The notes below the pieces were generated by a model that saw only the letters and a list, made by a program, of their open reading frames with translations, was not told the origin of the DNA and ran no database searches. The position numbers and the translations under genes were made by a program. 64,000 bases of DNA from Brachionus manjavacas (lineage: Eukaryota > Rotifera > Eurotatoria > Ploima > Brachionidae). Positions 7,617-45,224 of the stretch are shown in pieces. Positions within the stretch are counted from its first letter, which is position 1. Each line of letters starts with the position of its first letter. The stretch lies in contig JAHQIY010000003.1 of NCBI GenBank assembly GCA_019054805.1, positions 7,874,001 through 7,938,000 of the forward strand. Direction: 5' to 3'.

Positions 7617-7687
7617 ATGAATTTTTTTATTAAAAACATTAGCTTTTAGATATTAAACTTAAAAATAAATATCATAGACAGAATTTT

Positions 7688-9413: not shown

Positions 9414-10263
9414 CTATGTAAGATTTTCAATCAAAGTTTGTTTGTTGGCATGAGAATTTTGAGATCCATGACCAGTGGCATTTAATTTAAATATTCTTTC
9501 AATAATTGATATTTCATGAGCAGTTGTTTCGAAACCGCAAAAAGCGATCCAGTCATTAGCTATTAGTCCAGCTCCGAGTACATCACTACCTCTGTTAACA
9601 GTACTTGTCTATAAAAACAATTAATTTACTCAAGTCATAACTAAATTGGAAAAAAAAACTTACCACCAAAGGCACTTGAAGCAAAGAAGACAGCTCATCT
9701 TGCTCTTGGATGGTTGTTTTCGGATGGACAATACCACCAAGGTTATTGAATACACAAAAACTTCCTACAAGAACATTGTTGGCGATAGTATGTCTAAAAA
9801 TTTCCACATTCAGAACTTCAGCAATTATTTGCTCTGTTTCTTTGTCAAGATCTGGATGAATTATTGCAACATAATCATTACATGCTATCACATTTCCCAA
9901 AGCAGATAGACGTTCTTCGACTCGTCTGACTCTAACCGAGTCCGGCAAACTGTTTCGAATGTGTTGTAACTCTTGATCGGTAGTCGAACTGGGAACCAAG
10001 AGACCATGTCTATTTCCAACTGTTAAACGACCAACAACTCGACACTCGCCAATTGTGGCATGTATTACTGGAATATGATCAGACAATTCTCCCTCGAAAA
10101 CACTTTATTTGGAAAGATAATTTACTTTTTTAATATTAAATGCTTTAAATAAAAACCTGTAGAAATTTTCTGAGGCTCCTATGCCTACAAGACAATATGA
10201 GTTAGTCAATTTGGCAAAACAACCTATATCACTGCTACTCTCGAATAGTGCTCTTACAGCCAT
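9414..10263 (-). CDS. EIF6: Eukaryotic translation initiation factor 6 (intact copy)
   Basis: Ribosome anti-association factor that binds the 60S subunit and acts in its biogenesis in nucleolus and cytoplasm. Three exons: 10263-10157, 10102-9664, 9608-9414. They give 246 aa, against about 245 in animals. Recognisable blocks, in order: [115 protein letters not shown] and a tail ending ENLT. All three exons lie in one frame with phase-compatible junctions. Most of the gene, from 9559 upward, is repeated at 26307-26986, where it is broken. This is therefore the only functional eIF6 in the window. Confidence 0.96.
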
Positions 10264-10599
10264 TTTAAATTAGTCTGAATTATTAAAGAAATACACAAAA
10301 TATTAGACTCAAATTTTAATTTATACCAAGAAAATTAACTTTTAAATTAAATTTTATTCAGAAAAAATTTATTCATTTTAAAATTTCATAACCAAAATTA
10401 TTTTTTAAAATTACATTTTAACCATGCTTGTTCATATTCATAGTTTTAGTCTTTTTTTTATTTTAAATATGCACATCTCTGCACATTAAAGGGTTGAAAA
10501 TTTAAAAAATTATAATTCTTTGCTTTGAACTGCATTTTAACAAGTCTTGTAGATTTGAAATAATGTTAACTTTAAAAATATTTATTGTTAATTTACACA

Positions 10600-11034
10600 A
10601 AAAAAACTACTTTAATTTACATGTAGCTACAATCATTTGGTCTATTAAAAAATCGAATACTTGTTACAGGTAGTCTTTTTTGTCTTATGTCATCATCGAT
10701 CAAAGTGTATTGCAATTGGCAATTTTGTTATTTTAACAACTATAAAGCTTAATTAATAAGAATTAAATTATTTTTTTACAAATCTTACTTTAATTGAGCC
10801 ATCAGAGAGACCGACTGAAAATATTTCACCATTCGGATGAAATTTGCAGCAATGTATGGGATTTTCACAATCTCTATTATGTTTAAAAAATTATTTTTAT
10901 TTTAGTTAAATTGTTAACTTTTACATTATTCCGGCAACTTCTAAATCACCTTGGACTAAATAGTGGTCGGGCGAATGCTCATCTGGTTTAAAGGACAACA
11001 AAGAATCATTTTCTTTTAGCTTCATATTTTTCAT
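10600..11034 (-). pseudogene. Remnant of the WD40-repeat gene (dead copy)
   Basis: Equivalent to the first three exons of the intact WD40 gene at 27337-28809: same ATG context at 11034, same FKPDEHSPDHYLVQGDL stretch, same second exon (HCCRFHPNGEIFSVGLSDGS). The third exon carries an in-frame stop (TTG TTA AAA TAA, where the intact copy has TTG TTC AAA AAA) and lacks a short block including the QDHYKI codons. Everything downstream is gone: the sequence jumps from the third exon to the 3' flank through an A-rich junction at about 10597-10608. The loss of six of nine exons plus the nonsense codon makes it non-functional. Confidence 0.9.
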
Positions 11035-12737
11035 TCCGTACTTAATTTGTTTAAGAAGGCATAAAAAATTATTTAAAAATAAAAATTCAAATTTCGATCA
11101 TTTAATATTTCTATGGAAACAAAATGCAGTTTTTTTTAAAGAAAATTTAAAATCATAATTAAGACAACATTTTCGAAATTTTTAATAATTTTTGATAGTT
11201 TTTATTCAAAAGATATTTCTAATAGTAAAATAACGCATCCTTTTATATAAAAAATATCAGCATGTGTTTTTTTCAAATACTCCTGTGAAAAGAATCATAA
11301 TAATCAGATTCTTGATACCTCACCAAAATATTTATTTCTTGAATATTTACTTAAATTTCAAGAGCTATAATTATTTTGATAATATTAAATATTATTTCAA
11401 AATTTAACTTCATCAATATTAGATAAAATTTATTCTTAATTATCATTTTAATAATTTGTTTTTTGTATCTCTATTATATAACTTTTCTCGTCTTTAAATT
11501 CTTTTCCACAATCTTCTAAATTCCAATTTAATGTATTCTACAATCAAAATATGACAATTCTTTTATAATTTATATAAAACATTAAAATACCAACAATATA
11601 GAATTATTTTTTTAGTTGAGAGAAAGCTAATTTTTACAGAATTTACAGAATTTTTGACAGAATCTATTTATCCCTTTGATTTCAAAAACATCAGAATATC
11701 GAGAATAGTTATAATAAATGAATCTATCAATTGAGTAGTCTAACAAGAATGGTGAAATAGATGAAAAAATTTATGATTTTTTAAATAAAATGGAACAAGA
11801 TGCCTTCAACAAATCCATAACTCTTACTGAAATTTTAAAAACTAAAAAAATTCAATAAAATAGTAGAATAAGGCAACAATAATATTCATTATAAATCGTA
11901 TAAGATCTTTTTGATCTTTCTTATCAAAGTAAAATTACCCAGGGTATATTATTTATATTTTACTTTAATAAACAATAAATTTGAAAGAATGTGAAATAAT
12001 TCAATTATTGATTCAAGACGAAGAGAGTAATTAGGATTAGGGTCTAGTTTTGGTTTCAAAGAAAAGAGTGAATTTGTTTTAAAAAATAAAAAAATAAAAA
12101 ATTAATTTTTCTAATGTTTTATTTTCTTAATTCTTGGTGCTGTGTATGCTAATAAAAATGCATTATAAAAAAATTCTTTTTATTTTTTGTCTTAAATTCA
12201 AGTCTTGATGACCCATTAAATTAAGAACTTCGGTGTTTGATGCGCCCCTTAACCAGTGATAATACTATTAGATCATGCGTTCTTAATCGAAAATGTTTTA
12301 GTATGGGCGAGATTTACTTTAGAGAATAGTCCAAAAGCGTGTCTTAGTTTGTGGTGCAGCACAATTGAACGAGGGAATGCGTTCATTTTATTCAATTAAA
12401 TTTTAAGGTTACCTTTGTTTGAAATCACGAAAAAAATTTATTTTTGCGGCTCATATAGCCTAAACATTATTTAATTTACCGTTATCACCAAATTAAATAA
12501 AAGATTTAATACACAACCAGGCCCCAAATAAGACGCTTTTGTGTATTTTAAAAGTTCAAACTTTAGTTTTCCTCATTTTTAACTTAAATTCATTAATCAA
12601 CAATTATTATTAATTTTATAACCAAAAAATACTCTTGAATATATAATTAATAAATAAAGATGTATTGACGAAAACTAGTATCAATTTATTAGCAAAAAAT
12701 AAAGATAGAAAAAATTAATTTTTTAAATAAGTTAAAT
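11035..12737. other. Non-coding part of duplication copy A
   Basis: Spacer between the WD40 remnant and the sacsin fragment. Parts align with 28810-30124 in copy B. 11450-11840 and 12185-12495 have no counterpart there, and 11905-12105 is not clearly alignable. I recognise no gene. Confidence 0.6.
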
Positions 12738-14831
12738 CTAAACAATAGGCATTGGAAACTCTGATTTATAATTGTTAATAACGTCACTTTGCGAATTATC
12801 ATCATTTATATTCAGCAATTTTATAACTATATAAAAAAATCTATACGACCGCCGACCTAAACAATTTTTTATTGCTTCCATGTTTTTATAAGACTTAAGA
12901 ACAAATAATTTCTTAATTTCGTCGATAATTGCTTCAGCCAAGTAAAAATGAATATCCAGCTCATCATTAAAATCTCCTCGGATCATAAAGTTCATTCCTT
13001 TTCCGTCATCAGCTTTTATTCTGGCTATTTTTACTCTTTTTTCACTATCTTTAAAAAAATTATTTGGGTTGTCAAAATCGTAAAATTGAGTCACTAAATC
13101 ATTCATTCTGTAGACACTGATCGATCTGATACAGTTCTTAATATCTTCATTTAATTGTTTGTCGATGTCAAAAATGTCCTCGTCATTAACTGCTTCAAAG
13201 CACTCAATCAAAGATTCGAAAAATTGATCTGAATGCAACTTTTCCATCAAATTTTCATCCAAGATTCGCTCTCCACCATCTCCCTTTAGTTTTTCAATTA
13301 ACTTGTCCGACAACCGCTTGGGTGCCATTTCTCTGTAAGTTTTAAAATACTCAAAATTTTCAAATATGGACATCCAAGAGACTTGTTTGAACATGATACT
13401 CTTGTATGTGTTACCTTTTTTGCTGCGATTTTGCTCCATATTTTCAGCAGAGTTAGAATGAAAAGTATCGTGATAATGATTGATAAGCTCTTTAATATCA
13501 AACAGAACAATTGACTTTATTTCATTACTATTTTTGATGATAGATTCATAAGATGGTTTGTCCATGTAATAGAGCGTGTTTAGATGCTTCATTTCTCGCC
13601 TCGAATTGGGAAAATAAAGGTCCAATTTTGGCAAATAGTCTTGGTCAATCGAATTTTCTAATATTAAATGTTTAATAACTACCAAAACATTGTTGAATGC
13701 TCCTTTGCTCAGCAAATTTTCTGTCATGTAATAGTGTTGCAGTACTTGTTGGCAAAGAGAAAATGGAACATTTTCATTAGCACCCAATTGATGGAAAAAA
13801 ATCCAATTTTTTGTATATTCTTCCGGAAATTTATAAAAAAAGTCATCTATTTGGTCCGTAAATATCAAATTTTTTATAACTCTATTCGTTCTACATAGTT
13901 CAAAAGATTTATCAGCTTTCCTTACAACTAGGATTAAATTTTTATCTTTCAGCTGATCTAGAACTGTATCATCCTCAATTGATTGAAATTTATCATAATA
14001 TGACATCATTAATCTTTTTAATTCAATCATTTTGTACTGATTCTTATTTTTTAACTTAGAACTATCATTTTCGGACAAAAGAGCTATTAATTGTAAAAAA
14101 TTTTTGACCAAAATCTCATTTGGAAGATCGAAAACAATTCCTGAGTTATTTCCCAAATTGTTGATATAGCGAGGAAGCACCGGTTTAATTAACCAAGAGA
14201 ATTTTTGATTTACACCACAGATCCAGTCGTTTAAACAAATCAAATCGCCATGAATTGAATTCGGACTCTTTATGTATTCCAAAATGCAATCGTCATTTAA
14301 AATAGGAATAAACTTAATGTCTTTAATGTTATTCATAATATCATTGCTTTGAATTTTGTCAATTTCTTTAAAAAAAAGTCTGCAAACATCTTTTAGTTGA
14401 ACTAAATCAAGCTTTTTTTCTAAGTATTTTTGTCTTAGTGTTCGGGCAATTAGAATAAAGTCTTCTGCGGTGCAATTTTGTCTGAGACCCAACTTGTCAA
14501 GTAAAGGTCTCCAGTGGTTTGTATTAAGACTATCCGGAAGAAGAAATTCACTTAATGATTTTCTAAACAGTTCATTTTCGGGATCAAAGACTTGATTAGC
14601 AGAATAAAAAATTTTTTCAATTTTGATAAATTTCATTTCTTCAAGCAAATTCCAGAGATTTTGGTTCTTTTTAAGATTTTCTACACCAAAAGATAACAAG
14701 TTGTCTAAATGATACTCCAACAGCTTGAGGTCAGGTATGCTCAAAACCCATTTGAAAAAAATAAAGTACAAATTTTCAAAATTTGTTTGCTCAATATTAA
14801 AAATGATTTTTTTTTCATATTTTTTTTTCAA
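12738..14831 (-). pseudogene. 3' fragment of a sacsin-like gene (open 697-codon frame)
   Basis: A single uninterrupted reading frame nearly identical to the last ~690 codons of the complete sacsin-like gene at 30125-42257. They differ by scattered substitutions and an extra five-codon block (MIELK) after QYK. It lacks all Hsp90-like ATPase modules and begins just inside the duplication breakpoint near 14862, where the two copies diverge. The first few codons (MKKKYEKK) come from an A-rich tract with small indels, so the ATG is probably fortuitous. No promoter or upstream exon is visible. It is most simply a truncated duplicate. The clean reading frame means either that the duplication is recent or that a C-terminal-only product is kept; the sequence cannot decide. 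Confidence 0.75.
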
Positions 14832-14914
14832 TTATGCGACAATTTTGACGGTGATTTGTTCCCCATCTTTTTAATAAAATCAAATCAATTTTGATTCCAA
14901 AATTCCATTTGAAA

Positions 14915-15257
14915 TTATGGGTAAGAAGTAAAAACGAAAAGTACTGTACCTTCTAAGATCCGGTAATTGTTTGCGTCCTCAAGATAAAAAATTTGTTCCA
15001 TTAATATTGATTGTCCGATTGTAAATATTTTGTGAGTTAAACGCCGAGTTAAATTCGATTATCCATACTTTATTGGGCCAGAAATTGTAAATCGACGTGA
15101 TTGCATTATTTTCGTCTTGGTTTAAGGCGATATCGAACGTACTGAACAGAGTCTTTTTGCTAACTGGTTTGTCTAGCTTCTTCAAGGTTAGCTTGACGGA
15201 ATTCTTGAAAATCCACCGAGCAATTTCGCTTTGATTAGCTAGCGACATTGTTAACAT
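14915..15257 (-). CDS. Unrecognised ORF, possibly a retroelement ORF1 fragment
   Basis: A 92-codon frame runs from ATG at 15257 to a stop at 14979. It is followed, in another frame, by a further open stretch (EDANNYRILEG) that reads on naturally, as if a single frameshift had broken one longer frame. The segment YNFWPNKVWIIEFNSAF followed by INGTNFL resembles the RNA-binding, N-terminal ORF1 proteins of some invertebrate LINEs, but I cannot name the family. It sits just outside copy A of the duplication, on the same strand as the sacsin fragment. Weak call. Confidence 0.3.
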
Positions 15258-16360
15258 TCAAATTTAACGTTTAGATTCGTCACGTGACGACGTTATTATT
15301 TACCAATTTCAATTTTGCTAAGCCAAACGCTTTTTTTTTCTTTTTTTTTGTCAGCGAATTTTTTCAACCAGATTTATTTCAGACCGGATTTTTTTTAACC
15401 AAATCACTGAATTGATACTACATTGACTTTTTATATTTTCAAGATCTTAAAAATAATGTTTTAAGCGATATAATTTGAAATTTAAACTAAAATTTTTATG
15501 AAATTTTTTAAAACTTTTTAAAAATAATTAGATAAATTTGGTTAAAACTTACTTGTTACAATATATTAATTTTTTAAAAACAAAGTTTGTTACATTACAA
15601 ACCAAATCAAAAATACAGTTTAAATTTTCAAAAAAATTAAATAAGTTCATTGTTATTCGCTTCCTTAACTTATCTTCACAAAGCTTACCACGACTTAAAG
15701 TTGAGTTTGGTTTTTTCTCTAATAGTTTGTTTTTGTTTTTTGCACCAGAATTCACCAAAAATCATATTAATAATAATTAATTTCCGAATCATTTAGAAAA
15801 ATTTAATCAAATTCTTGAATATTAAAAATGGTACCGTCTGAAATTCTGTTAGCTTTCAAAAAAGGTGCGACTAAGTATATTGCACTATTTAGCAGTATTT
15901 TTTCTAATATTTTTTATCAACTTTAATTTTAATTTTTCAAAAAATGGATAATTTTTGTTTAATTTGTATTAGAAATTCACAACAACAAAAATTTATCCCT
16001 TAATGGGTTAAATGGGTTAAAGGGTTTAAAATTCTTCCTTTAGGGTTAAATTTCTGGGTAATTATAAACAATTTTAGGCAAAATCAGGTTAACCACTTGA
16101 AGCCCTTTGCATCTCACACAATTAACCGAATGAGATAGAGGTGACAAAAAAATTCGTGGATATTGAGTGAGTATTTTTGAAGTTTCGAATAAAATGGGTG
16201 CGAAATTTGCAATAAAAAAATATGCATCCGTTTAAGCTTGTTTCCTAAAAATCGTCCAAAAATTATTTAATAAAAGTACTAGAATGATAAATAATAATTT
16301 TTAAAAATGTAACTATGTAAAAATGTACTGATTCGGAAAAATCGCCCCTTTTTCATTTTT
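15258..16360. other. A/T-rich spacer
   Basis: No supported gene. An 80-codon frame at 15538-15780 and its antisense partner are both Lys/Asn/Phe-rich and look fortuitous. Around 16001-16060 there are a few loose GGGTTAAA-like units, too irregular to call an array. Confidence 0.5.
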
Positions 16361-16366
16361 TTCAAG

Positions 16367-16821
16367 GCCCAGGAAAAGAGAGTGGGCTAAGGCCTAATAC
16401 AGAAAATACCCCAATGATTGTCGGTCTTGGCAAAGCATGTGAATTGGTAAAAAAGAATTTGGATAAATATTCAAAGCAGATGCAAGAAATGAGAGATTAT
16501 ATGGAAAATTAATTAATTGTATATTTAAGTTTTTTCTATTCATTTTTTTTTTTTTTTTAAAAGGAAGTTTTCGGAGTTGAAAATTTAAGATTTAATGGAA
16601 AATCAGCTGGCATAGAAATATTGCCGAATACGTGTAACGTGTCTTTTATTTCGAGCCCAAAGTTTAAAGGATTTTTGATACTTAAAAATTGTGATTATTT
16701 GGAAGCTAGCACAGGATCGTGCTGTCATTCCGGAGAATTCAGAGCTTCCAAGATATTACTGGCAATGAATATTGATTTAACTGTGGATTTTCAAAATTCT
16801 CTTAAAAAGATTTCAAATTAA
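16367..16821 (+). pseudogene. SCLY: Selenocysteine lyase 3' fragment (broken)
   Basis: Selenocysteine lyase is a PLP enzyme that releases selenium (and alanine) from selenocysteine. Two blocks match its C-terminal half. The first (about 16367-16512) contains RPNTENTPMI, VGLGKACELV and EMRDYMEN. The second (about 16565-16821) contains LPNTCNVSF and STGSCCHSGE, the loop carrying the catalytic cysteine. There is no GT donor between DYMEN and the stop that follows it, so the blocks cannot be joined by a normal intron. The second block stops shortly after NSLKKIS, about 25 residues before the usual C-terminus. No 5' exons carrying the PLP-lysine are seen upstream. A GC-AG intron (GCAAG near 16480) is possible but would remove conserved residues. 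Best read as a decayed partial copy. Confidence 0.75.
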
Positions 16822-17289
16822 TATTAAGTGATTCTTTCTATATAAAAAAAATTATTTTTGTAAAATTTTATTAATTTTTATATTCAAAATAAGCAAAATT
16901 AAGATATGAATTTTAAAAAGTATTGTGAATTTCAATACAAATTGAACAAATAAATTCAGTTTTTAATAAGTTAAAATTAAAGTTAATAAAAATTATTGAA
17001 AAAATGGATGGTTAATTGAATTTTATTTTAATTTATTAAAAAATTAAAATTTTTTTTTCAATTTGTGTTTTAAATTCACAAAACCTTTTAAAAAGTGAAT
17101 AAAAATAATAAAATAAAAATTTTTCGAAAAGAAAATTGATTTAAAAAAAATAATTTTTTATGTCATTGAAATCAAAATACAGTAAAAAATTTAAAATAAA
17201 CATAACCGGCAATATTGAAAGTAAATTTCATTATTTGAACTAAATGATGATTTAATTATATTTAACGAACAAAAGACCGAGTTTAAAAA
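16822..17289. other. A/T-rich spacer
   Basis: Nothing recognised; very A/T-rich with long A and T runs. Confidence 0.5.
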
Positions 17290-17415
17290 ATAACGTATTT
17301 GCTCAATTTTAACGGCATGTCGGTATTTATGGCAATCCAGAATTAACGACAAATTCTTATAACTTTAAAAAGATTATTTAACGGCATGTCGTTAAAATCC
17401 AGCAAATACGTTATC
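17290..17415. repeat. Imperfect inverted repeat (foldback)
   Basis: A left arm of about 36 bp beginning ATAACGTATTTGCT (17290) is matched by the reverse complement of the right arm ending AGCAAATACGTTAT (about 17414), with about five mismatches. Both arms also contain the near-palindrome CGGCATGTCG. The loop is about 55 bp. It could be a tiny foldback transposon remnant or a hairpin; no target duplication was found. Confidence 0.6.
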
Positions 17416-17588
17416 ATAGACAACATTCTGTAAATTATATCCATTTTATTTAATTTATTTGATAAAAGAAATTATTGTTAAATAAAAAAAGATTCTTTTA
17501 AAAAAGGCATAGCTATAATAAAGATGCTTTTAAAACATTCAACAGTATTTTTTTTGAATTTATTAAAAATTCAAAAAAGTTAAATTAA

Positions 17589-17789
17589 TTATTTTATTAT
17601 AAAAAAGTCTACTCATCAACTTCATTCGGGCAATCATCATTTGCTTCAGCTCAACAATACTCTAGTTATGGGTTCAGTCTACAATTTAATCAAACTGCTG
17701 CTTTCTCATCTTCACAACTCAATGCTCCTCAACTGAGTCATCTTTATCAATGTTTTCTGGTAAATCATTTTCTTCGGCCGAAAAAATAA
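17589..17789 (+). CDS. Short Ser/Gln-rich open frame with an FG motif (unrecognised)
   Basis: A short frame reading SSTSFGQSSFASAQQYSSYG and on to a TAA at 17787. Composition (Ser, Gln, Phe-Gly) is unlike the surrounding A/T-rich DNA and would suit a disordered FG-type segment such as a nucleoporin. A GT at about 17761 and an AG at about 17803 would allow a second small exon ending RSLK. No domain is recognisable and it may be a remnant or chance. Confidence 0.2.
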   Translation, partial: LFYYKKVYSSTSFGQSSFASAQQYSSYGFSLQFNQTAAFSSSQLNAPQLSHLYQCFLVNHFLRPKK

Positions 17790-19455
17790 ACCTAATTTAC
17801 TCAAGGTTCGTAACGATTTTAAATCAACATTAACTGACGGAATGATATTTTCTCAAGGAAATCTTGTGCGATCTTTAAAGTAACTAATCTTAATCCGAAG
17901 CCTAATCAGCTAGTAAATTAAAAATTGAAAGTATCAGCATTTTAAATTTTTTTTTGGATAATTTCATAAGTTTGTCTTAAGTCATTATTTTTTGAAAATT
18001 TTAAATTACTTCAAACTTGAATTTGAGGTTAAGGAAGTCGCGAAAAAAAATTAAATTTTAAATTAACAATCTTATAATTCTTAAATGAATATAACATAAA
18101 ACTATTGAGGACAAGCAGATATTGCGGCTCAGGATATTCTCTAATCAAGACGGGTCGAATCCTAATACTCAACGAAGAATACAAATTAAAAGAAAATCCT
18201 TTTTGTTGACAGCCTTTTAAAGAGCTTTTCTGGGCGAAGGGTTTATGTTTCTAAATGAAAAAAATTCTTTTATAAGTATTAATTTATTTATTTAATTTAA
18301 GAAAATTTCAATTTTGAACAAGTATGGTCGATCATATTTGGATTTATTATCCTTGTAAGCATTATTACTACGGATATGTTTGGATTCCGTTTTATTTGAA
18401 TGAGCAATCGGTAGCGCCCGAAAGAACCAAAAAGAAGCTTTTAACACAATTTTTCAAAATAACAGCTTTTATACCTCCATTTAAGATGAAATAAGCAGTC
18501 GAATGGTAAAAAAATTAAATAACAATTACAATAAAGACTAAAAAAATTAAATTATAAAAATAATTTAGAGTTGTTATTGTTGGAGAAAAGACGGGCAAAT
18601 CTGAAGTATCCAATTATAATAGATCTAAATTACTCAACAATTATATTCCTTTTATAATAACATTAGTGGTTAACCCTTCAGTGCCAATAAAATATCTAAA
18701 AAAAAATTTTATTTTTTAATTGACATATGCTCCACTGACTGCACCGTTTGAGCTCGACGGTGGCATGCCTAAATAAAGATCACCGCATGGACAGACACTA
18801 GTAATTTCCATTCTTTTTTTAATTAATTTTGAATTTCAAATAGCTGATTGTGTTGTCCCATTTCGTACACTTAAATAGTAATTTGATTTTTTCTGATATT
18901 GCTTCGAAAAGCCTCACTATTCCGCTTAAAAGGTTGATAACTTAAAATTTATTCGAGAACCGCTTTATTTAAGGATCATGTTCTATATTGCTTAATAACC
19001 ATTTGATTTGAATCTTTGTAGAAGATTTTTGAAAAAATCTTTGGAAATTAAGCTAAATCTTTTGATTTTGTTGAAACATTGTATCAAATTAGTATGTTAG
19101 GTTGAATTTTGACGAAAAAATTTTATTTTTTTTGTTTTAGATCCTTTTTGTATCCAGAAGAAATCACTCAAACGAAAAATCATAATTTATTGAACTTATA
19201 AACTTTTGTTTGTAGATAACTATGTAGAAGTCACGCTTTTGATTAATGCACTTTAATTGAGGTAAGTTCCCGCGATGCAAAACTTCCACAATATCTCCAG
19301 GTTTGGATTTCGACCTCTTTTTTTGATTCTTCGTGTATGAAAACCTAAGTTTAGCCAAAAATTTAGGGGGGGTCAAAAATTTTTTTTTTGGCTAGGAGGG
19401 CCTGAATCTTTACAGCCTTATATAAAGTAAATATTATCATATTTTTTTTAATGTA
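17790..19455. other. Gene-poor spacer with small unassigned frames
   Basis: No supported gene. A 56-codon ATG frame at 18324-18494 (+) is rich in aromatic residues but matches nothing I know. A 70-codon minus-strand frame at 19164-19376 contains KPGDIVEV and may be a retroelement scrap. A short inverted repeat built on GCCAAAAATTT lies at about 19353-19397. Confidence 0.4.
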
Positions 19456-20300
19456 GGTAAAATACTTCCTATATTAAAGAATCAAGATGGATTAAATGAT
19501 GACATAAACAACATTCGTCTAATAACAATATCAGATACTATTACCAGTGTGTTTGAAAAGTATATATTGAGTAGAATCAGCCAGAAACATGAAGATCCTC
19601 AAACACAATTTGGATTCAAAAAAAAAAGTTCCACTAATAATGGTATCTATTGTGTGACTGAAACAATTCAACATTATAAAATGAGAAAGAAGAAACTGTT
19701 TATTTGCGCGATCGATGCAAGTAAAGCATTAGATAAGGTAATTAGAGAAATTATGCTGAAAAATTTGATAGGAAAGTTGGAACCAGAAATATGGAGAATA
19801 TTAAAAAGCTATTACCATGACTCTTTATCAATTGTCCAAAACAAAAATGAAATCTCATCAATTTTCAAGACGACAGTTGGAGTAAAGCAAGGAGGTCCGC
19901 TTTCACCAAAATTGTTCTCAATCTATGTTGAAGATCTGATAAAGGAAATAATGGAAACCGACTTAATAACTGATATTAATGGAATTAAAACAGGCATACT
20001 AATGTATGCTGATGACTTGTTAATAATGACAGAGTCCATTAAAAAAATGGAAAAAGTCCTTAAAATGTGTGAGAACTTTGGACTGCGAACTGGAATAAAA
20101 TTTAACCCGTCTAAAACACAGATTATGCGAATTAACGGATCTAAAAAGGATAATGCTAGACTTGAACTCTGTGGAGAGGAAATTGAATGGGTCGAGAAAA
20201 TCAAATACTTAGGAGTATGGGTTGATGGAAAATGTATATATAATTGCTCAACCTTAACTCAAAGGGATGTACAAAATTTAAAAAGAAAAAAAAATACTTA
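19456..20300 (+). mobile_element. LINE reverse-transcriptase fragment
   Basis: Open frame from about 19456 through at least 20280 with ordered reverse-transcriptase motifs: NIRLITISDTITSVFEKYIL (fingers), FGFKK, AIDASKALDKV (motif A; the usual Phe after the second Ala is Leu here), VGVKQGGPLSP (motif B), MYADDLLIM (catalytic motif C), KTQIM, and KYLGVWVDG (motif E region). This is a non-LTR (LINE) type RT. The endonuclease and the C-terminal part are absent, and after about 20285 the frame runs into A/T-rich sequence, so the element is truncated at both ends. The frame itself is clean, suggesting fairly recent insertion. Confidence 0.85.
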
Positions 20301-20420
20301 CATACGACTTTTTAAAAGGTTTTATCTTTTTTTGTGTATTTCAATATTTGAATATTTAATCAAAAATTAAACTTTTGTTGTATTTATGTAAACATTTATT
20401 TTAATATTTTAATTTCTTAA

Positions 20421-20716
20421 ACATAATCTTAATATTTAAAACCCAAATGTGTGAAAAAAAGTAAAATTTTCATGCATATACTTTCGATAACTAACTTTGA
20501 AAAAAAGTGAAATGTTCATACATATTCTAACGATAACTAACTTTAATATTTAATTATATACTGCTTTAAAAATTGTCTATTTCTAGATTTAATTTAACAT
20601 AATTTTATGCTGCTTTAAAAATTGTCTTATTCTGGATTATCTTTAACATAATCTAAATATTTAAAACCCAAATGTGTGAAAAAAAGTAAAATGTTCATGC
20701 ATATCCTTTCGATAGC
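20421..20716. repeat. Direct repeat, two ~70-bp units
   Basis: The units at about 20421-20490 and 20647-20716 share ATTTAAAACCCAAATGTGTG followed by an A-run and TTTCGATA. A second pair inside (TGCTTTAAAAATTGTCT) repeats between them, so the whole stretch looks like a degraded tandem repeat of roughly 110-230 bp period. It lies just 3' of the LINE fragment and may be its tail. Confidence 0.65.
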
Positions 20717-20916
20717 TTTTTTTAATATTTGAATATAGTGCCTTTAAAATTGTCTTAATCCATTTTTTTAGATTACATAATATATTTTAATTTTTTTGCA
20801 ATCTAAAATTAGATTTTAATTATGTTAAGTTATGAAAAAATTAAGAAAAGAAAAAAACATTCAAACTCATTGAAATTCATTCATTCAAGTTTATCTTACA
20901 AGAAATGTTGTTTGTA

Positions 20917-21506: not shown

Positions 21507-22665
21507 TAGTGATGAAATCGAATAATTTTTTTGGGCATAAATTGAAACTTGAATAAATAAATTTGAACAGACAATTGAATGTGAAATTTTGTCGAATAAA
21601 ATTTTGAATACCAATTAAATTTGAATTTTAATTTGATTCATTTTTACTTTTGAAATTAAATTCGAAAACTGTCTGTTTTTAAATTAAAATTCGAACTAAA
21701 TTTAAATTTGAGAAGCAATTTGAAATTATAATAAAATCAACTAAAAAATATTAAAATTTGAATAAAATATTTGAAAAATTTATAATTTAAATATTTATTT
21801 AAAATTCAGAAAATTTTTATGAATATTTTATCATTTGTTATGTTCTATAAGTTGACTGTTTATTATTTTTTTGAAAACAGATTATCAGTCTAAAAAGCTT
21901 AGATGAAGAGTTAAACAGGCACATTAAAGCAAATAAGTTCTTTAAAAATTGAGGCTGTAAAGTTTAAAAAAATATAAAGTAAATCTGTCTCATTTTTTAT
22001 TATATTTTCATTAGAAGTTGACTTCTCTAATTTTATACTATTTTGAATGACCACCTAAAGATAGATTTTTTTAAAAAATTGCATTCATTACATTTTTATA
22101 TTTTATCTTATTCTCTTTTTTTTCTATAAATATTATTCTGCTTAAATTTAATGGAATAAATAAATAAATCTGAGTTTTTTGTACTCCTTCACTGTCATTT
22201 TCATTAAAAGAAATTTTTTTAAGTCGAGAATTGTGGGCAAGTGCAATCTAAATCAAATAAGTAAAGAAAATTTTTAAAAATTTAGAAAAGTTTTGCTGAC
22301 TTCTCAAAATCTAGCAGAATCTGATATTGATATCCGAATAGCGTCAAAACTCAATTTACTTTTTGAAAATTTTTTTATCAAATTTTTCTTTAAATTTTTT
22401 TGTTTTTCAATTATTTTTTAATTATTTAATTTTTTCAAATAGAAAATCAAATATTTATTATATTCGGTTTTAAATTCAAAATTTTTCTTTTTTCAAATTT
22501 TAATTCGAATGTTTTAGAGATTCAATTTTAAAATTAAAATTATAATTTATTAAATATATTTTTAAATTTTTTTTATATTCAAATATTATATTCGAAGCTG
22601 ATTTCCGTTCGAAAAACTACTTATTCAAATATCGGTTCGAATATGCATATTCGATTTCATCACTA
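21507..22665. mobile_element. hAT-like non-autonomous element (about 1.16 kb)
   Basis: The ends are inverted copies of TAGTGATGAAATCGAATA. The flanking octamers TAATATTA and ATATATTA match at 6 of 8 positions, compatible with an aged 8-bp hAT target duplication. The interior is dominated by AATTCGAATTT-like repeats with no transposase frame. Confidence 0.65.
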
Positions 22666-23094
22666 ATATATTATTTAAGCTTTTTTATCTCAGAATTTAA
22701 TCAATCGAATCTACTCGATCGACACATTTTCTGATAGAGAATTAAATGCTCGATATTCTGAGCTGGTTATCTTGAAAAAAAAAATGAAAATTTTTTCGGA
22801 AAAAAATCGGAAAAATTTTGACATTTTTTAACTTTTTAATTTTTTTTAAACAAAATGAATTCAAAATTTTATAATTATGTAAAAAGATGTCAAAAATTAA
22901 CATTTAATTTCTTAAATTTTAAAAATTTTCTTTTTTTTTCAAAAAATGGACTCTTTTTGAGCGATTATAAAATTTTTTTTAATAAATAAATAAAAAAAGT
23001 AAAACCATCATTTTGTTCAGAATTTTGTCTTGTTTCAGAATTTGTATAAAAATATATAGGTTAAGGGGTTTGCAAAAAAGTAGATCTCGAAAAA
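22666..23094. other. A/T-rich spacer
   Basis: No gene or clear repeat seen; mostly A and T runs. Confidence 0.5.
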
Positions 23095-23740
23095 GTTAAA
23101 ATAAAAAATTAGCAGAATCCAAAAATGAATAATTTTTTTAAATAAATTTTATTTTTAAATTTTAATTTAAGTGCCCATTCAATTTTTATTACAATTGTAT
23201 TGCTAATTTAAATAAGATTAATAAAAATGACACTAAAAACAAAAAAATGCAATTATTATCAACTTCTTCATTAAATTTTTATTTTTCATTTCATTGTTTT
23301 GAAAATTTTTTTGCCTCAACATTAAACTCACCATTCCTTTTTGAACCTTGGTTGAAACTTGATTCTAACCGGGTTGTTTAAAAGTAAAAAATTAAAGCGA
23401 AAGTCATTAAAATTAAAGTCCTGGCTTGGGCTTCACTTATGACTTGTGATTTTTAAAAAACTCTGCATCTACTGCTACAGCTACATTCTTAACAGCTTCC
23501 CTTTTTACTTTTCGATTCAATTGAAATTTAAACTATCTTTTTCTTTTTTTTTCTTTTAATATTAAGTTTGGTGAATGAATAATGAGTGAAGAAAGAATTA
23601 TCTAAAATAGTCCGTAATCTTCTAGATGCTGATATAAACATTAATATAATAGCTAACATCTTGTCTTAATTATAAGCCCGTATTCTTAACATGAACTCAT
23701 GGATATGAATAATGATTCCATTCTCAGTGCTTTAGATTTA
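23095..23740 (+). repeat. Dispersed repeat R1, first copy
   Basis: Shares long matching blocks, in the same orientation, with 43207-44362: one around TTGCCTCAACATTAAACTCA and GAACCTTGGTTGAAACTTGA, another around AATAGCTAACATCTTG and CATGAACTCATGG. The other copy has extra insertions. It encodes nothing recognisable. Confidence 0.85.
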
Positions 23741-24005
23741 TGCAAATTTCCCAAAAATCCTAATGTCAAATCAATACTGTATCTCTTAAAGTAATTAAAT
23801 TTAAAAATACTGATTTTTCCTTAAAATTTATTTATAAAATCAAAACATTGATGCTTAGTCTAACAAAAATGGAAATTTTGAAATTGAAAAGATAAAACTA
23901 TGAAGCTCAGACTAGTGTACCAAATTTAAATTTGCGGCACGATGCAAAGAAATTTTAAATTTTCTAATTTTTATTCGATTGTACAATTGTCGCTTAAAAA
24001 TGAAA
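23741..24005 (+). repeat. Dispersed repeat R2, first copy
   Basis: Matches the reverse complement of about 46497-46762 along its length, for example AATTTCCCAAAAATCCTAAT at one end and GTCGCTTAAAAATGA at the other. It abuts R1 here, whereas the second copies lie 2 kb apart in opposite orientations. Confidence 0.85.
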
Positions 24006-24117
24006 AAAGTTTACGAGAGTAAATTTTACCAAGAGAAAAATGTTATTTAGTGTTAAATTAAAAGGAAAAATATCAATATCCTTAACACATCAATGATTAA
24101 ATGATCATATAAAAATT

Positions 24118-24290
24118 AAACGGTGTTCGGGCCAGAGCTCTCGTTTAGCGATTCGGGTATGTTGCAGATTAGAGAACTAATGGTTAAAATTAAAATTAAT
24201 AATTAAGTTTTGTATTAATTAAAATCTTTTAGTTAATTATCCATATGATGATTTTAATTTTCTTCATTTTAGAATTTAATTATTGATATG
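24118..24290 (+). repeat. Dispersed repeat R3, first copy
   Basis: Matches the reverse complement of 42540-42713; the best block is GATTCGGGTATGTTG followed by AGATTAGAGAACTA. It is notably less A/T-rich than its surroundings at the start. Possibly the end of a transposon; no coding capacity. Confidence 0.8.
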
Positions 24291-24301
24291 ACGGGTAAAT
24301 A

Positions 24302-24806
24302 GGCATGTTGAAGTTTATGATCAAATGCTCAATTAAAAATAAGCATAATAATTTCTTGAATTAACGAAATGATTTTTTTTTATTGGTAATGAATTAACAT
24401 ATTATGCTACAGTCTCAAATTTTTTTTTAAGTTGATCATAAAATAAATGGATTAATAATCGATTTTTAGAATTAAAAAGAGTACCAAATCCGAAAGACAA
24501 AAAACTTAACTTGGCAAAGATAATAAAATTAAAAAACCAAATGATATTTTAAGTTTAGAAAAAGATTTATTTATTTGCATTATTAACTTTACTAAAAAAT
24601 CAAAAATAATCGATCATTTTAGTTAATTTTGAGCATACTATTAATTTAAATTTTTTTTTGTTTTTGAAATTTTAATTTAAAAAACTATGTTAATCAATGT
24701 TACATCAAGAATTTTATAAAATTCTACCTAAATATTCAGGAAATTTATTATTAAATATAAAATGAGCAATTTGATATAAAGTTTTGATCATAAACTTCAA
24801 CATGCA
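24302..24806. mobile_element. Foldback/MITE-like element (about 505 bp)
   Basis: Begins GGCATGTTGAAGTTTATGAT and ends with its reverse complement (ATCATAAACTTCAACATGCA). The same terminal motif (TTGAAGTT-ATGATCA, then ATGCTCAA) occurs in the element at 54262-54640, so the two are one family. No clear target duplication. Confidence 0.7.
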
Positions 24807-25057
24807 TCTTAATTAAAATGTTTTTGTGAATATAAGCAATCGATAATATCTATTTTTCGATACTCTTAAATATCTATTATTTATTTTTAGAAGTCTAAGA
24901 TTTGATTAAAAAAATTTATTTATTTCAAAGATAACTAATTGTAAAAATCAAAGTCTAACAGCTCATTGTTGATTATTATTGTACAAATAACAAAAAAATT
25001 AAAAAAAATGCTTAAAAAAATCGCTTTTTAAAAAATTTGATCAATCCTATGATCCCG

Positions 25058-25795
25058 TTATTTCATATTTCTTCTTCCAATGCGTTGTTTTTCAAATCTT
25101 GCTTCCATTTCTTCCAATACTCTTGGCGTATATCTAACTATCAATTTAACACTTCCCACAGCCGCTTTTAACAATTCCACAGCTCTTTCATGATATTCAT
25201 TTTCAACATTCTTGATTAAATTTTTAAAGAAAATTTAATTTAAAGAAAATTGTGAACTTACCACTCCATTTACTGAGAGAAGTTGATCACCACGTTTGAG
25301 TCCACCGTGCTGATCAGCGACTCCACCAGGTATAATTCGCGAAATGTAAATCGGAGAATGCTGCTCTTTCCCTCCCATCACATTAAAGCCGAGACCTTCT
25401 GCAGTTTTTGGCAGCTCGACAACTCTGGGATGCGGGTGACCTTCGGAGGCAGCAAAAGCTGCAACTGTAGCCTTTATTATTTTGAATTTATTTAATTTGA
25501 AAAGAGACTCTTTTAAATTGAAAAGAAGCAACCTTTGCAGTGGCGCTAGCTCTCAGCTCTGGTGTTCCATTTGAATCAATTGTATGATAGATGTGTTCGT
25601 ACACTTCTCTGACAGCATTGAAAAAATCGCTCTGCAAAACTTTTTGCAATGCGGCTAACTTTTGAGGTGGCACTTCATTAGCTTTAAAAAATACTAAATC
25701 TGATCTAAATTTAACAGATTTTTACTTTTTTGCAACTTTTCCAAGAGCTCAACAGCTCGATTCAAATCTCTTTCTAATGTTAGTTGATCCGACAT
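25058..25795 (-). CDS. LIN7: LIN7 (Veli/MALS) L27-PDZ scaffold
   Basis: Small polarity scaffold that, with CASK/LIN2 and Mint/LIN10, holds receptors and channels at basolateral membranes and synapses. Four exons: 25795-25726, 25681-25533, 25471-25262, 25210-25058. They give 193 aa in one frame. The L27 region starts at the N-terminus ([16 protein letters not shown]) and runs through [14 protein letters not shown] and [11 protein letters not shown] linker [16 protein letters not shown] leads into a PDZ domain: carboxylate-binding loop LGFNVMGG, then [15 protein letters not shown] and [10 protein letters not shown]. The tail has [26 protein letters not shown]. Length and order match animal LIN7; all junctions are canonical. 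The gene is complete and sits between copies A and B of the segmental duplication. Confidence 0.96.
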
Positions 25796-26306
25796 GATAC
25801 TTAAATTGATTTATGTTGTTGTGAATTGCAATTTTATTGATTATCTATTGAGAAATTATTTGGAAAAAAATCAAAATACAAATTGAAATTTAATATTTTC
25901 AATAGACTAATCAATCATTTTTTTATTTAAAAGAATTCTTACATTTTGGTCATACACGGTATTAGTATTTTCTAGATATTCGAGGTAAACATAGGACTTG
26001 AATTAAACAATTATTTGAATATTCTTTTAATTTTAATGATTTTTTTATGATTGATTGAAAATCGAGGCATAATTTGTTACTAAAATTAGGTTAGTTTTAT
26101 TTGTATACCATTTTTAAATGGTGACAATTTGATTGTCTTATCGATCCGGATTTTTTTTTTCTAAATTTTATTCTTTTCTAAAAAAAAAATCAAATCTTTA
26201 ATTACAAATAAAATAAAATTCATTTAAATATATGATTTATGAATTTTAATGAAGAAAAGCGCAATGCAATGACTATCAAAAAAAAACATTTTGATAAAAG
26301 TGGATG
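25796..26306. other. Spacer between LIN7 and duplication copy B
   Basis: Should contain the LIN7 promoter; no motif stands out. The last part (about 26235-26295) resembles 45228-45272 (GAA-GAAAAGCGCAATGCAATG against GAAGAGCAGTGCAAAGCAATGG), part of a LINE fragment, so a LINE scrap may sit next to the duplication breakpoint. Confidence 0.45.
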
Positions 26307-26986
26307 GCTATTAGTCCAGCTCCGAGTACATCACTACCTCTGTTAACAGTACTTGTCTATAAAAACAATTAATTTACTCAAGTCATTACTAAATTGGAAA
26401 AAAAAAATTTACCGCCAAAGGCACTTGAAGCAAAGAAGACAACTCATCTTGCTCTTGGATAGTTGTTTTCGGATGGACAATACCACTAAGGTTATTGAAT
26501 ACACAAAAACTTCCTACAAGAACATTATTGGCAATAGTATGTCTAAAAATTTCCACATTCAGAACTTCAGCAATTATTTGCTCTGTTTCTTTGCAAATCT
26601 TTGCAAAATATCACATTTCCCAAAGCAGATAGACGTTCTTCGACTCGTCTGACTCTAACCGAGTCCGGCAAACTGTTTCGAATGTGTTGTAACTCTTGAA
26701 CGGTAGTCGAACTGGGAACCAAGAGACCATGTCTATTTCCAACTGCTAAACGACCAACAACTCGACACTCGCCAATTGTGGCATGTATTACTGGAATATG
26801 ATCAGACAATTCTCCCTCGAAAACACTTTATTTGGAAAGATAATTTACTTTTTTAATATTAAATGCTTTAAATAAAAACCTGTAGAAATTTTCTGAGGCT
26901 CCTATGCCTACAAGACAATATGAGTTAGTCAATTTGGCAAAACAACCTATATCACTGCTACTCTCGAATAGTGCTCTTACAGCCAT
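26307..26986 (-). pseudogene. eIF6 pseudogene (truncated, frameshifted)
   Basis: Same three-exon layout as the intact eIF6 at 9414-10263, with ATG at 26986. Exon 3 is cut off at the duplication breakpoint, so the last ~50 codons are lost. In exon 2 a block of about 42 bp is replaced by 16 unrelated bases around 26594-26609, a net loss of 26 bp that removes the codons for [13 protein letters not shown] and shifts the frame to an early stop (…[12 protein letters not shown]). It cannot make a normal protein. Confidence 0.92.
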
Positions 26987-27336
26987 TTTAAATTAGTCTG
27001 AATTATTAAAGAAATACACAAAATATTAGACTCAAATTTTAATTTATACCAAGAAAATTAACTTTTAAATTAAATTTTATTCAGTAAAAATTTATTCATT
27101 TTAAAATTTCATAACCAAAATTATTTTTTAAAATTACATTTTAACCATGCTTGTTCATATTCATAGTTTTAGTCTTTTTTTTATTTTAAATATGCACATC
27201 TCTGCACATTAAAAATTTGAAAATTTAAAAAATTACAAGTCTTGTAGGTTTGAAATAATGTTAACTTTAAAAATATTTATTGTTAATTTACACAAAAACG
27301 AATGAAGTACATTTAGTTTTACTACAGTCTTTGACT

Positions 27337-28809
27337 TTATTTAAAACTAGAAATTTTTTTTCTTTTTAAAAGAAATAATCTTTTTAGAGAACAAGCTATT
27401 AGATTTGGTAGGTCGTCAATATGATCGTTATCAATGCATGCAACTCCATGAAGCAATTCAGACAGTCCACCTATAGACTGAATAATTTTTAATAATTTCA
27501 AAATAGATAATTCAATTATTCAATCTACTTTTAATGTTCCTCTGTCGTAAATTTGAGCTGAATTTTTTTCATTTCCACCCACGTAAATGTAGCTCGTGTT
27601 CAACCATTGACAACCATAAATCTAAAAAAATATGCCAAAATAAAGCCATAAAATAATCTAGTAAACACTACCATCATGCTCGACTTGTTCTGAAACACAT
27701 CTCGGATCAGAGAAAAATTCCGCAGATCCCAAATCTAAAAAAGATAAATTTAAATTGATCTAAAAATTTATTTTAATGTTACAAAGATTTTTACTTGAAG
27801 AGTAGAATTCTTTCTCCATGAACCAGTAAGTAAATGGTTATAATTACTATCAATGTCTATGGCATCTCCACAAATATGAGGTCCATATATATAACTTTAA
27901 TCTATCAATATTAAATAATTAAATAATCAATTAAATACTTTTGTGAATGGGAAATGCGATCGTCCCAAATTTGCACCGTATCATCCCAGCCTCCGCTAAA
28001 AATTTGATTATTTTCTATCGGATGATATTTTACACAATATACTCTACTCGAATGACCACTTATAGTTGTTCCATAGTCACTTAGGTTTTTATTAGATAAG
28101 AATAAGTGGAAAATTAGAATAAGTTTACCCGCTCTCTAAACAGTTTATTTGTTTCTTGGTGTCTACATCATAAACTTTAATCTTACTATCATATCCACCA
28201 GCGGTCATTCGTGTAAATGAACTGTTAAATCCAATAGATAAAGGCATCAGCTCTTTGTCAAAAATAGTAAAAATGCAAGATTTAGTTGGATAGTGCCAAT
28301 ATTTTATAAAACCAGAGACATCTATAGTAAAATTTTAATTTTTTTTCAAAAAAAACTACTTTAATTTACATGTAGCTACTAAAATTTTGTAGTGATCTTG
28401 ATTTAAATCATTTGGTCTATTAAAAAATCGGATACTTGTTACAGGTAGTCTTTTTTGTCTTATGTCATCATCAATCAAAGTGTATAGCAATTGGCAATTT
28501 TGTTTTTTGAACAACTGAAAAGCTTAATTAATAAATATTAAATTAAACTTTTTTTAATTTTACTTTAATAGAGCCATCAGAGAGACCGACTGAAAATATT
28601 TCACCATTCGGATGAAATCTGCAGCAATGTATGGGATTTTCACAATCTCTATTATGATTAAAAAATTATTTTTATTTATGTTAAATTGTTAACTTTTACA
28701 TTATTCCGGCAACTTCTAAATCACCTTGGACTAAATAGTGGTCGGGCGAATGCTCATCTGGTTTAAAGGACAACAAAGAATCATTTTCTTTTAGCTTCAT
28801 ATTTTTCAT
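27337..28809 (-). CDS. WD40-repeat protein (356 aa)
   Basis: Nine exons: 28809-28700, 28648-28564, 28514-28370, 28321-28129, 28079-27939, 27894-27795, 27734-27672, 27621-27529, 27477-27337. All are phase-compatible and give 356 aa. WD40-type blades are visible: HCCRFHPNGEIFSVGLSDGS, MTAGGYDSKIKVYDV, GHSSRVYCVKYHP with FSGGWDDTVQIWDDR, GPHICGDAIDID with LLTGSWRKNSTLQIWDLR, and YVGGNEKNSAQIYD. The protein should fold as a beta-propeller and act as a protein-interaction scaffold. I recall similar GPH-CGD / TGSWR proteins in other animals but cannot name the family. The start at 28809 is the first ATG of the open frame after an upstream stop. The copy at 10600-11034 is dead, so this is the functional one. 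Confidence 0.88.
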
Positions 28810-30124
28810 TCCGTACTTAATTTGTTTAAGAAGGCATAAAAAATTATTTAAAAATAAAAATTCAAATTTCGATCATTTAATATTTCTATGGAAACAGAAA
28901 GCTGTTTTTTTAAAGAAAATTTAAAATCATAATTAAAACAACATTTTCGAAATTTTAAATAATTTTTGATAGTTTTTAATTCAAAGATATTTCTAATAGT
29001 AAAATAACGCATCCTTTTATATAAAAAAATATCAGCATGTGTTTTTTTTAAATACTCCTGTTAAAAGAATCATAATAATCAGATTCTTGGTAGCTCACCA
29101 AAATATTTAAATATTTATAAAAATATTTATTTCATGAATGTTTACTTAAATTTCAAGAGCTCTAATTATTTTCACTTCATCAATATTAGATAATATTTAT
29201 TCCAAATTATTATTTTAAAAACTAAAAAAAATTCAATGATATAGCAGGACAAGACAATAATAATATTCATTATAAATCGCTTAAAAGCCTGCCCTTCAAA
29301 ATTTTAACCTTAAGTTTTTTCTTGATAGAAACACTTTACTTGTTTAAGCACAATCAGTGTTCAGAAAAATAGGCATCTTATAGATTAATTATTTAAAATG
29401 ATCCTAAATTTGATTGAAACTTTCAAAAGAAAAAAAGCTTGCTGTTTAAATTTCAAAATTTTTAAAGCTAATAACAGCACCATAATCTAATTCAAAGACG
29501 GAGTTTAAGACTGAGTTGAGTTTCCTATAATAAAGATTTGTGAATTATCCAGCATCACAAAGTAATTGCTGCCTTGTGCTAGACTCTTTTTTTTACACAG
29601 TTATAAGCAAAGTAACATTAAAATTTGTTTCGTCTATCTTTTTTAATCAATTTAAATGATTTTTAGCATTTTTAATTTTAACCATTTTAAATTTAATTTA
29701 ATATTTTGTATTTTCAGTTCTTGATCAGCCCTTGATCAGTCCAAACTTGGACAAAAAAAATTTCCTATATTTTATTTTCTTAGTTGTTGGTGCTGCACCA
29801 AATGCATAAAAAAAAATTCTTTTTATTTTTTTTTAATCCTAAACCTTACCGTTATCAGCTTGTTAAATAAAAGATTAATTTCAATTAAGGTAAATCAGCA
29901 CACAATCAAGCCCCAAATAAAGACGCTTTTGTGTATTTTAAAAGTTCAAACTTTAGTTTTCCTCATTTTTAACTTAAATTCATTAATCAAAAATTATTAT
30001 TTTTATTACCAAAAAATACTCTTGAATAAATAATTAATAAATAAAGATGTATTAACGAAAACTAGTATCAATTTATTAGCAAAAAATAAAGATAGAAAAA
30101 ATTAATTTTTTAAATAAGTTAATT
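28810..30124. other. Non-coding part of duplication copy B
   Basis: Spacer between the WD40 gene and the sacsin stop codon; partly alignable with 11035-12737. It should include the WD40 promoter and the sacsin 3' UTR. No gene seen. Confidence 0.6.
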
Positions 30125-33100
30125 CTAAACAATAGGCATTGGAAACTCTGATTTATAATTGTTAATGACGTCACTTTGCGAATTATCATCATTTATATTC
30201 AGCAATTTTATTACTAAATAAAAAAATCTATACGACCGCCGACCTAAACAATTTTTTATTGCTTCCATGTTTTTATAAGACTTAAGAACAAATAATTTCT
30301 TAATTTCGTCGATAATTGCTTCGGCCAAGTAAAAATGAATATCCAGCTCATCATTAAAATCTTCTCGGATCATAAAGTTCATTCCTTTTCCGTCATCAGC
30401 TTTTATTCTGGCTATTTTTACTCTTTTTTCACTATCTTTAAAAAAATTATTTGGGTTGTCAAAATCGTAAAATTGAGTCACTAAATCATTCATTCTGTAG
30501 ACACTGATCGATCTGATACAGTTCTTAATATCTTCATTTAATTGTTTGTCGATGTCAAAAATTTCCTCGTCATTAACTGCTTCAAAGCACTCAATCAAAG
30601 ATTCGAAAAATTGATCTGAATGCAACTTTTCCATCAAATTTTCATCCAAGATTCGCTCTCCACCATCTCCCTTTAGTTTTTCAATTAACTTGTCCGACAA
30701 CCGCTTGGGTGCCATTTCTCTGTAAGTTTTAAAATACTCAAAATTTTCAAATATGGACATCCAAGAGACTTGTTTGAACATGATACTCTTGTATCTGTTA
30801 CCTTTTTTGCTGCGATTTTGCTCCATATTTTCAGCAGAGTTAGAATGAAAAGTATCGTGATAATGATTGATAAGCTCTTTTATATCAAACAGAACAATTG
30901 ACTTTATTTCATTACTATTTTTGATGATAGATTCATAAGATGGTTTGTCCATGTAATAGAGCGTGTTTAGATGCTTCATTTCTCGCCTCGAATTGGGAAA
31001 ATAAAGGTCCAATTTTGGCAAATAGTCTTGGTCAATCGAATTTTCTAATATTAAATGTTTAATAACTACCAAAACATTGTTGAATGCTCCTTTGCTCAGA
31101 AAATTTTCTGTCATGTAATAGTGTTGCAGTACTTGTTGGCAAAGAGAAAATGGAACATTTTCATTAGCACCCAATTGATGGAAAAAAGTCCAATTTTTTG
31201 TATATTCTTCCGGAAATTTATAAAAAAAGTCATCTATTTGGTCCGTAAATATCAAATTTTTTATAACTCTATTCGTTCTACATAGGTCAAAAGATTTATC
31301 AGCTTTCCTTACAACTAGGATTAAATTTTTATCTTTCAGCTGATCTAGAACTGTATCATCCTCAATTGATTGAAATTTATCATAATATGACATCATTAAT
31401 CTTTTGTACTGATTCTTATTTTTTAACTTAGAACTATCATTTTCGGACAAAAGAGCTATTAATTGTAAAAAATTTTTGACCAAGATCTCATTTGGAAGAT
31501 CGACAACAATTCCTGAGTTATTTCCCAAATTGTTGATATAGCGAGGAAGCACCGGTTTAATTAACCAAGAGAATTTTTGATTTACACCACAGATAGAGTC
31601 GTTCAAACAAATCAAATCGCCATGAATTGAATTCGGACTCTTTATGTAATCCAAAATGCAATCGTCATTTAAAATGGGAATAAACTTAATGTCTTTAATG
31701 TTATTCATAATATCATCGCTTTGAATTTTGTCAATTTCTTCAAAAAAAAGTCTGCAAACATCTTTTAGTTGAACTAAATCAAGCTTTTTTTCTAAGTATT
31801 TTTGTCTTAGTGTTCGGGCAATTAGAATAAAGTCTTCTGCGGTGCAATTTTGTCTGAGACCCAACTTGTCAAGTAAAGGTCTCCAGTGGTTTGTATTAAG
31901 ACTATCCGGAAGAAGAAATTCACTTAATGATTTTCTAAACAGTTCATTTTCGGGATCAAAGACTTGATTAGCAGAATAAAATTTTTTTCCAATTTTGATA
32001 AATTTCATTTCTTCAAGCAAATTCCAGAGATTTTGGTTCTTTTTAAGATTTTCTACACCAAAAGATAACAAGTTGTCTAAATGATACTCCAACAGCTTGA
32101 GGTCAGGTATGCTCAAAACCCATTTGAAAAAAATAAAGTACAAATTTTCAAAACTTGTTTGCTCAATATTTAAAAAATGATATATTTTTTCATATTTTTT
32201 TTCAATTATGCGACAATTTGAACGGTGATTTGCGAAATCTAGAAATTCCGACAAATAGCTATTTTCTGAATTTAAATTTTGGCTAAAAAAATCTCTGATT
32301 TTGCTTCCAAATGGTAAATCAGAAAAATCTAACAAAATAACTTCAGAATTTTCGATTGAATCAACTTTACCGAATATGTCTTCATAGATGGGGAGACTTT
32401 TAAGGAATCTTTTGATAGAAAATTGATTATGAGGGCCTGATTCTTCCAACTTGAATTGATAATTCTTTAATTTAAAGCTATATGTTATATTTGCGTTAAA
32501 TAACTTAAGAAATTCTTCTTTGTTTTCACCAGAGAACATTTTATAATATAGATTTTTCTGGTTCTGTATAAATGTAATTAAGTCATCAATTTTATTTAAA
32601 TCTTGAACAATTTTGTTCAAAAAATTTTTCTCTAAATTTCGATTATCATAGACAGGTAAGTCTATATCTTTGAGTAATAAAATAGAGTAGCCTCTCACAA
32701 TTCTTTGAACTTCTTTAATTGGCATAAAAAATTTTTTGGATTTTTGATTCACCAAAATAATTGCCCAGTCTTCAATTGGTTTTAATTTTTCCAAAATATA
32801 TTCATTGTTCAAATTATCCTTAGTAGCGATTGATTCATCAATCAACATAACAACTTGGTCAACTAATCTCGAATTTCCCACACTTAATTCAGGATATTTC
32901 ATCGATCCCTGAATTAAATAAATATTTTTGTCTAAAATACTTGGAATTAACTCTATTAGATCATAGATATCTATATCTTTGAACCAAATTTTATTATTTG
33001 GAACTACATTATAAAATTCTCTATGCAAAAAAAGATGTCCACAATCTTTAAATTCATTATTTAGACGTTTTATAATTTTTTTTTGAGAGCTGAAGAATGT

Positions 33101-45125: not shown

Positions 45126-45224
45126 ACGAAACGTATTTTCTCGATTATTCTTGAAGACTTTGAAGACTACATGACCAAATATACATTAAAAGTCTCTAAC
45201 TAGATGTAGAATGGCCAAATATTT

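Follow-up and report, generated by a model that had tools for sequence, protein, structure and literature searches.

In C. elegans, about half of the young duplicate pairs are described as partial or chimeric, and in yeast, sets of linked duplicates are flanked by loci that are themselves partial or chimeric (both as given in the relevant passages of PMC2728529). Here we analyze a locus of the rotifer Brachionus manjavacas at which a block carrying eIF6, a WD40 gene and sacsin occurs twice, as copies A and B. The window, that is, the whole stretch of DNA analyzed, comprises 64,000 nucleotides (C3:7874001-7938000) of a 114-Mb assembly of 61 contigs; the DNA is AT-rich, with a GC content of 27%, and the values quoted for monogonont rotifers in the part of PMC11954553 that deals with base composition span 24.95-31.14%. 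With a probability that we put at roughly 55%, the best explanation of the locus is a single same-orientation duplication of tandem type, whose ends cut eIF6 and sacsin, followed by ordinary decay.

Comparison of the window with itself by BLAST aligned the two copies in three main pieces on the same strand (9559-10603 with 26307-27298, 10575-11454 with 28329-29221 and 12511-14858 with 29900-32232), at identities of 93.2, 86.5 and 97.6%, respectively, with two further short matches between them. This similarity is far above chance and bears out an earlier sequence-only reading of the same DNA, which had described same-orientation copies of a three-gene block and had placed their boundaries to within a few bases (copy A ends at 14858 rather than 14862, copy B at 32232 rather than 32238). 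The eIF6 part of the alignment differs by substitutions at 1.6% of aligned sites, the surroundings of WD40 at 3.9%, the 3' flank of sacsin at 3.1% and the sacsin frame at 1.35%. As in other multi-gene segmental duplications, the eIF6-WD40-sacsin tract has the same gene order and strand in both copies, and the genes at its ends are incomplete (eIF6 is cut in B, sacsin in A) while the interior WD40 gene is covered whole; WD40 alone falls entirely within the block, eIF6 and sacsin crossing its ends. The sequences that flank A and B are unrelated to each other. A high-copy short repeat, elsewhere often found as neighboring inverted copies (among the best 40 of 214 candidates scored), occupies 12081-12405 in the gap between WD40 and sacsin of copy A; in copy B it is matched over 71 bp, at 75%, at 29761-29831. 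The presence of this repeat in the gap partly explains why A and B fail to align there.

Table 1. Coordinates of the features of the duplicated locus, in positions of the window.
Feature	Position	Strand	Remarks
Copy A of the duplicated block	9559..14858	+	Self-comparison; detectable extent
Copy B of the duplicated block	26307..32232	+	Self-comparison; detectable extent
Copy A eIF6, intact	9414..10263	-	Exon 1 10157-10263, exon 2 9664-10102, exon 3 9414-9608
Copy B eIF6 pseudogene	26307..26986	-	Exon 3 cut, exon 2 frameshifted
Copy A WD40 remnant	10604..11034	-	Retains exons 1-3; exon 3 carries TAA and a 26-bp gap
Deletion junction in copy A WD40	10598..10604	.	From alignment; junction read by eye
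Copy B WD40 gene, intact	27337..28809	-	Nine exons, 356 codons
Copy A sacsin 3' tail	12738..14858	-	Open frame 12738-14831
Copy B sacsin	30125..41767	-	3880-codon stop-to-stop frame; upstream exons, if any, untraced
LINE-like fragment, internally deleted, at A's right edge	14856..15348	-	49-bp interior piece and 5' end of the element
Spacer between the copies	14859..26306	.	11.4 kb: repeats, reverse-transcriptase frame, LIN7
LIN7 gene	25058..25795	-	PDZ by Pfam; L27-like start, exon joins and name by eye
71-bp repeat scrap by B's left edge	26226..26296	+	Reverse-transcriptase-like by eye

The eIF6 gene of copy A translates across its three exons into 241 codons (the final five codons of the gene and the TAG at 9414-9416 were read by eye) and matches residues 1-227 of a solved eIF6 structure (6lqm) with an E value of 5.9e-117. 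Exon 1 of copy B is identical to that of A, its exon 2 measures 413 bases against 439, a net loss of 26 bp that shifts the frame, and its resemblance to A ends at 26307, within exon 3. The intact eIF6 in A and the frameshifted, truncated eIF6 in B claimed by the sequence-only reading are thus both present; the exon-2 replacement that it also proposed is actually a small deletion scar, in which TCTTTGCAAA is present twice as a 10-bp tandem repeat. Frameshift aside, the comparable codons of exons 1 and 2 differ between the copies by five amino-acid and four silent changes, none of them in exon 1. A third eIF6 sequence lies on another contig (C5:979525-980145; L035 5026-5646). Neither intron is present in it, the greater part of exon 2 is missing, and its identity to the coding sequence and to the untranslated flanks on either side is about 86%. 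To judge by these features it is a decayed retrocopy: like a processed pseudogene it is intronless, keeps the untranslated flanks and has suffered internal loss, although no poly(A) tail can be distinguished in its AT-rich surroundings. Its use for polarizing the changes between A and B was given up, the shared part holding by eye one difference (10362), at which C5 agrees with B.

All nine exons of the WD40 gene in copy B have GT/AG borders and form an open frame, and in copy A exons 4-9 have been removed by a 1054-bp deletion (27293-28346 of B is absent from A) with CAAAAA, a microhomology of 6 bp, common to its two sides; the earlier account of a WD40 kept in B and lost from A through a stop codon and six missing exons is exact. 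In Pfam the copy B protein gives general WD40/beta-propeller matches, with none of the full-propeller models above the curated cut-off, and the nearest other place in the genome, on C17, reaches 43% over 88 residues for a query of 269 residues that left out exons 1 and 9.

The long sacsin frame of copy B matches the Pfam model SACS in three stretches (548.8 bits), and the tail in copy A, 697 codons from the 3' end of the gene, has no match in Pfam, in keeping with the claim that the front of sacsin was lost from A and kept in B. Over 682 of 698 codons (the comparison dropped 11 at the divergent end and five in an indel), the two differ with a dS of 0.0215 (8 changes in 378 sites) and a dN of 0.0097 (16 in 1668). 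When neutral change of the copy A tail was simulated, so small a number of amino-acid replacements had a probability of 0.12 and the lack of any stop one of 0.31; the tail is compatible with neutral decay. A function for it was considered and set aside, since an open frame of this length is unremarkable at that stop-free probability. A search for the bdelloid spliced leader with one mismatch allowed returned 0 matches, which is uninformative given that the portion of PMC1925144 concerned with Brachionus plicatilis reports no such leader.

We propose that a single DNA-level event in the same orientation, most likely of tandem type, duplicated some 5-6 kb reaching from eIF6 exon 3 across WD40 to the 3' part of sacsin; the copies are now separated by the spacer with its repeats and LIN7. 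Judging from the geometry, the left copy would have received a whole eIF6 and a beheaded sacsin, the right copy a tailless eIF6 and the long sacsin, and WD40 alone would have been doubled intact. The WD40 of copy A would then have been broken by the in-frame stop, the 26-bp gap and the 1.05-kb deletion with its 6-bp microhomology, and the dead eIF6 of copy B may have acquired its exon-2 scar with a local repeat of 10 bp, as templated-insertion end joining can leave; the lesions themselves are seen in the sequence, and their order and the repair pathway are deduced. A block with its ends inside eIF6 and sacsin would account for A retaining eIF6 and B the long sacsin. If these ends are the original breakpoints, as the sequence-only reading has it, the eIF6 of B and the sacsin of A were dead at birth, WD40 was the only gene with a choice of survivor, and the exon-2 scar reflects no more than the decay of a fragment already dead.

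The shared orientation and the complementary truncation of the end genes, such that the left copy keeps the left gene and the right copy the right one, speak for a duplication of tandem type. Against it stand the non-adjacency of the copies, which are parted by 11.4 kb of repeats and LIN7, a gene whose presence demands a separate insertion, and the truncated repeat pieces that adjoin both inner edges, a trace expected of later deletions. The tandem model is weakest at the spacer with LIN7; adjacency may have been lost later. The reading of LIN7 is open across its exons, and counts of the repeats in the spacer are lower bounds, taken from the best 40 of 810, 40 of 1541 and 40 of 229 candidates scored. 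One dispersed repeat family has pieces in both orientations at 23188-24306 and 42534-46764. Farther along the window, a frame with a DEP domain at 58115-59557 appears by eye to be part of a multi-exon Dishevelled gene.

At the right edge of copy A, both pieces of the LINE-like fragment are matched by six of the six element copies compared (L039-L044, 98-99% alike when measured against L041), the frames of which look by eye like a zinc-knuckle ORF1 and an endonuclease/reverse-transcriptase ORF2. The 5' end of the element lies upstream of the sacsin tail of A, in the same sense. A clean insertion of copy A into such an element was rejected, as a search to the left of A (6500-9558) returned itself and C5 only, with no trace of the rest of the element. 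The 71-bp scrap, 77-80% identical to four other places, ends about 10 bp from the left edge of copy B. Since one edge runs into a LINE-like element's interior and the other adjoins this scrap, either may be the product of a later deletion.

These edges bear on a possible, if rather unlikely, origin by dispersed duplication to a site about 11 kb away, in which the eIF6 of B, or alternatively the front of sacsin in A, was cut by a later edge deletion, the old order being LIN7-eIF6-WD40-sacsin at B or TANGO2-eIF6-WD40-sacsin at A. Such an origin would leave a whole LIN7 between the copies with no separate move, and the two inner edges do resemble deletion joins; its price is that the complementary end truncation becomes a coincidence of two separate deletions, and a search of the window with L041 and L043 turned up no remainder of the LINE-like element apart from a weak 72-base match at 44397-44461. 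Were it true, two genes (eIF6 with WD40, or else WD40 with sacsin) would have been truly redundant and lost from opposite copies. A more specific scenario strikes us as improbable, namely that eIF6 and WD40 were once whole in both copies and lost oppositely, that the sole working eIF6 sits in a new copy A, and that the LINE-like 5' end could drive a transcript of the sacsin tail; it would be a small-scale instance in which a conserved gene relocates through duplication and loss.

The alignment and dating suggested by the sequence-only reading gave a divergence of about 2% for the synonymous sites of sacsin and of 3.8% for non-coding sequence (43 of 1132 aligned sites, with the WD40 exon borders approximate), values that do not differ significantly (P 0.14). 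The divergence is, however, uneven: non-coding differences number 7 in 415 sites on the eIF6 side versus 29 in 493 on the WD40 side (P 0.001), the variance across 200-bp bins was reached by none of 5000 shuffles, and the longest run free of differences extends over 338 aligned sites (P 0.05). The segment 10598-11454, compared with 28329-29221, has diverged more than its neighbors; conversion on the eIF6 side may be responsible, or a faster rate in this segment. Since the unevenness could come from gene conversion or from uneven constraint, a single clock date is unsafe. We consider it very unlikely that the duplication is older than the 2-4% signal implies, with similarity partly maintained by gene conversion; the unevenness and the long identical run would suit this, but coding constraint on one copy and misalignment around AT-rich indels could mimic both.

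A divergence of 2-4% could separate the haplotypes of a diverse species. Across the 114-Mb assembly, the sacsin front matched only itself, the TANGO2 side matched itself and the eIF6 retrocopy on C5, with no second copy of the flank, and the LIN7 side matched itself and eight short scraps of repeats of 48-104 bases, so that none of the three flanks tested occurs twice, as fits paralogues. A very unlikely reading, that A and B are alternative haplotypes joined by the assembler into one contig, would accommodate their divergence but is disfavored by these single-copy flanks, by the different surroundings of A and B with 11.4 kb of other sequence between them, and by its corollary that each allele would bear a broken conserved gene, eIF6 among them.

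The sequence-only reading had interpreted the locus as duplicate resolution by reciprocal gene loss, a label that is only partly earned: the duplication is real and the genes that survive are distributed over the two copies, whereas reciprocal loss, which requires two or more genes to have once been complete in both copies and lost from opposite ones, is only a possible history here. Its statement that each gene survives exactly once holds for the intact copies found, beside which stands the third, decayed and intronless eIF6 on the other contig; its independent hits in opposite copies do correspond to two separate lesions (WD40 in A and eIF6 exon 2 in B), the second of which may be decay after the gene had died. 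Any partial tandem copy of needed genes yields each gene once, so the pattern itself says little, and we lean, if only slightly, toward seeing in it the ordinary decay of a partial duplicate with no special mode of resolution. Survival in opposite copies is, as a caution, what a partial tandem copy would be expected to show and is an insufficient sign of reciprocal resolution. On a small scale, the locus clearly illustrates how cutting the end genes of a duplicated block determines which copy is able to survive, and how rapidly the one redundant gene, WD40, is broken. With a related genome for comparison, it could be turned into a dated instance of relocation, of eIF6 or of LIN7.

Among described systems, the tandem duplication with random loss outlined in PMC5122201 likewise involves the direct copying of a block and the loss of redundant copies from either side. 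That model, as set out there, concerns mitochondrial gene order, whereas the present block is nuclear and has its end genes cut. In the multi-gene tracts described in the corresponding part of PMC2728529, neighbors were likewise copied together, with the interior whole and the ends cut; unlike in those tracts, one of the copies here has gone on to lose the interior gene, and a gene-bearing spacer parts the two. The eIF6-WD40-sacsin locus belongs to this known kind of duplication tract, with a whole interior and partial end genes.
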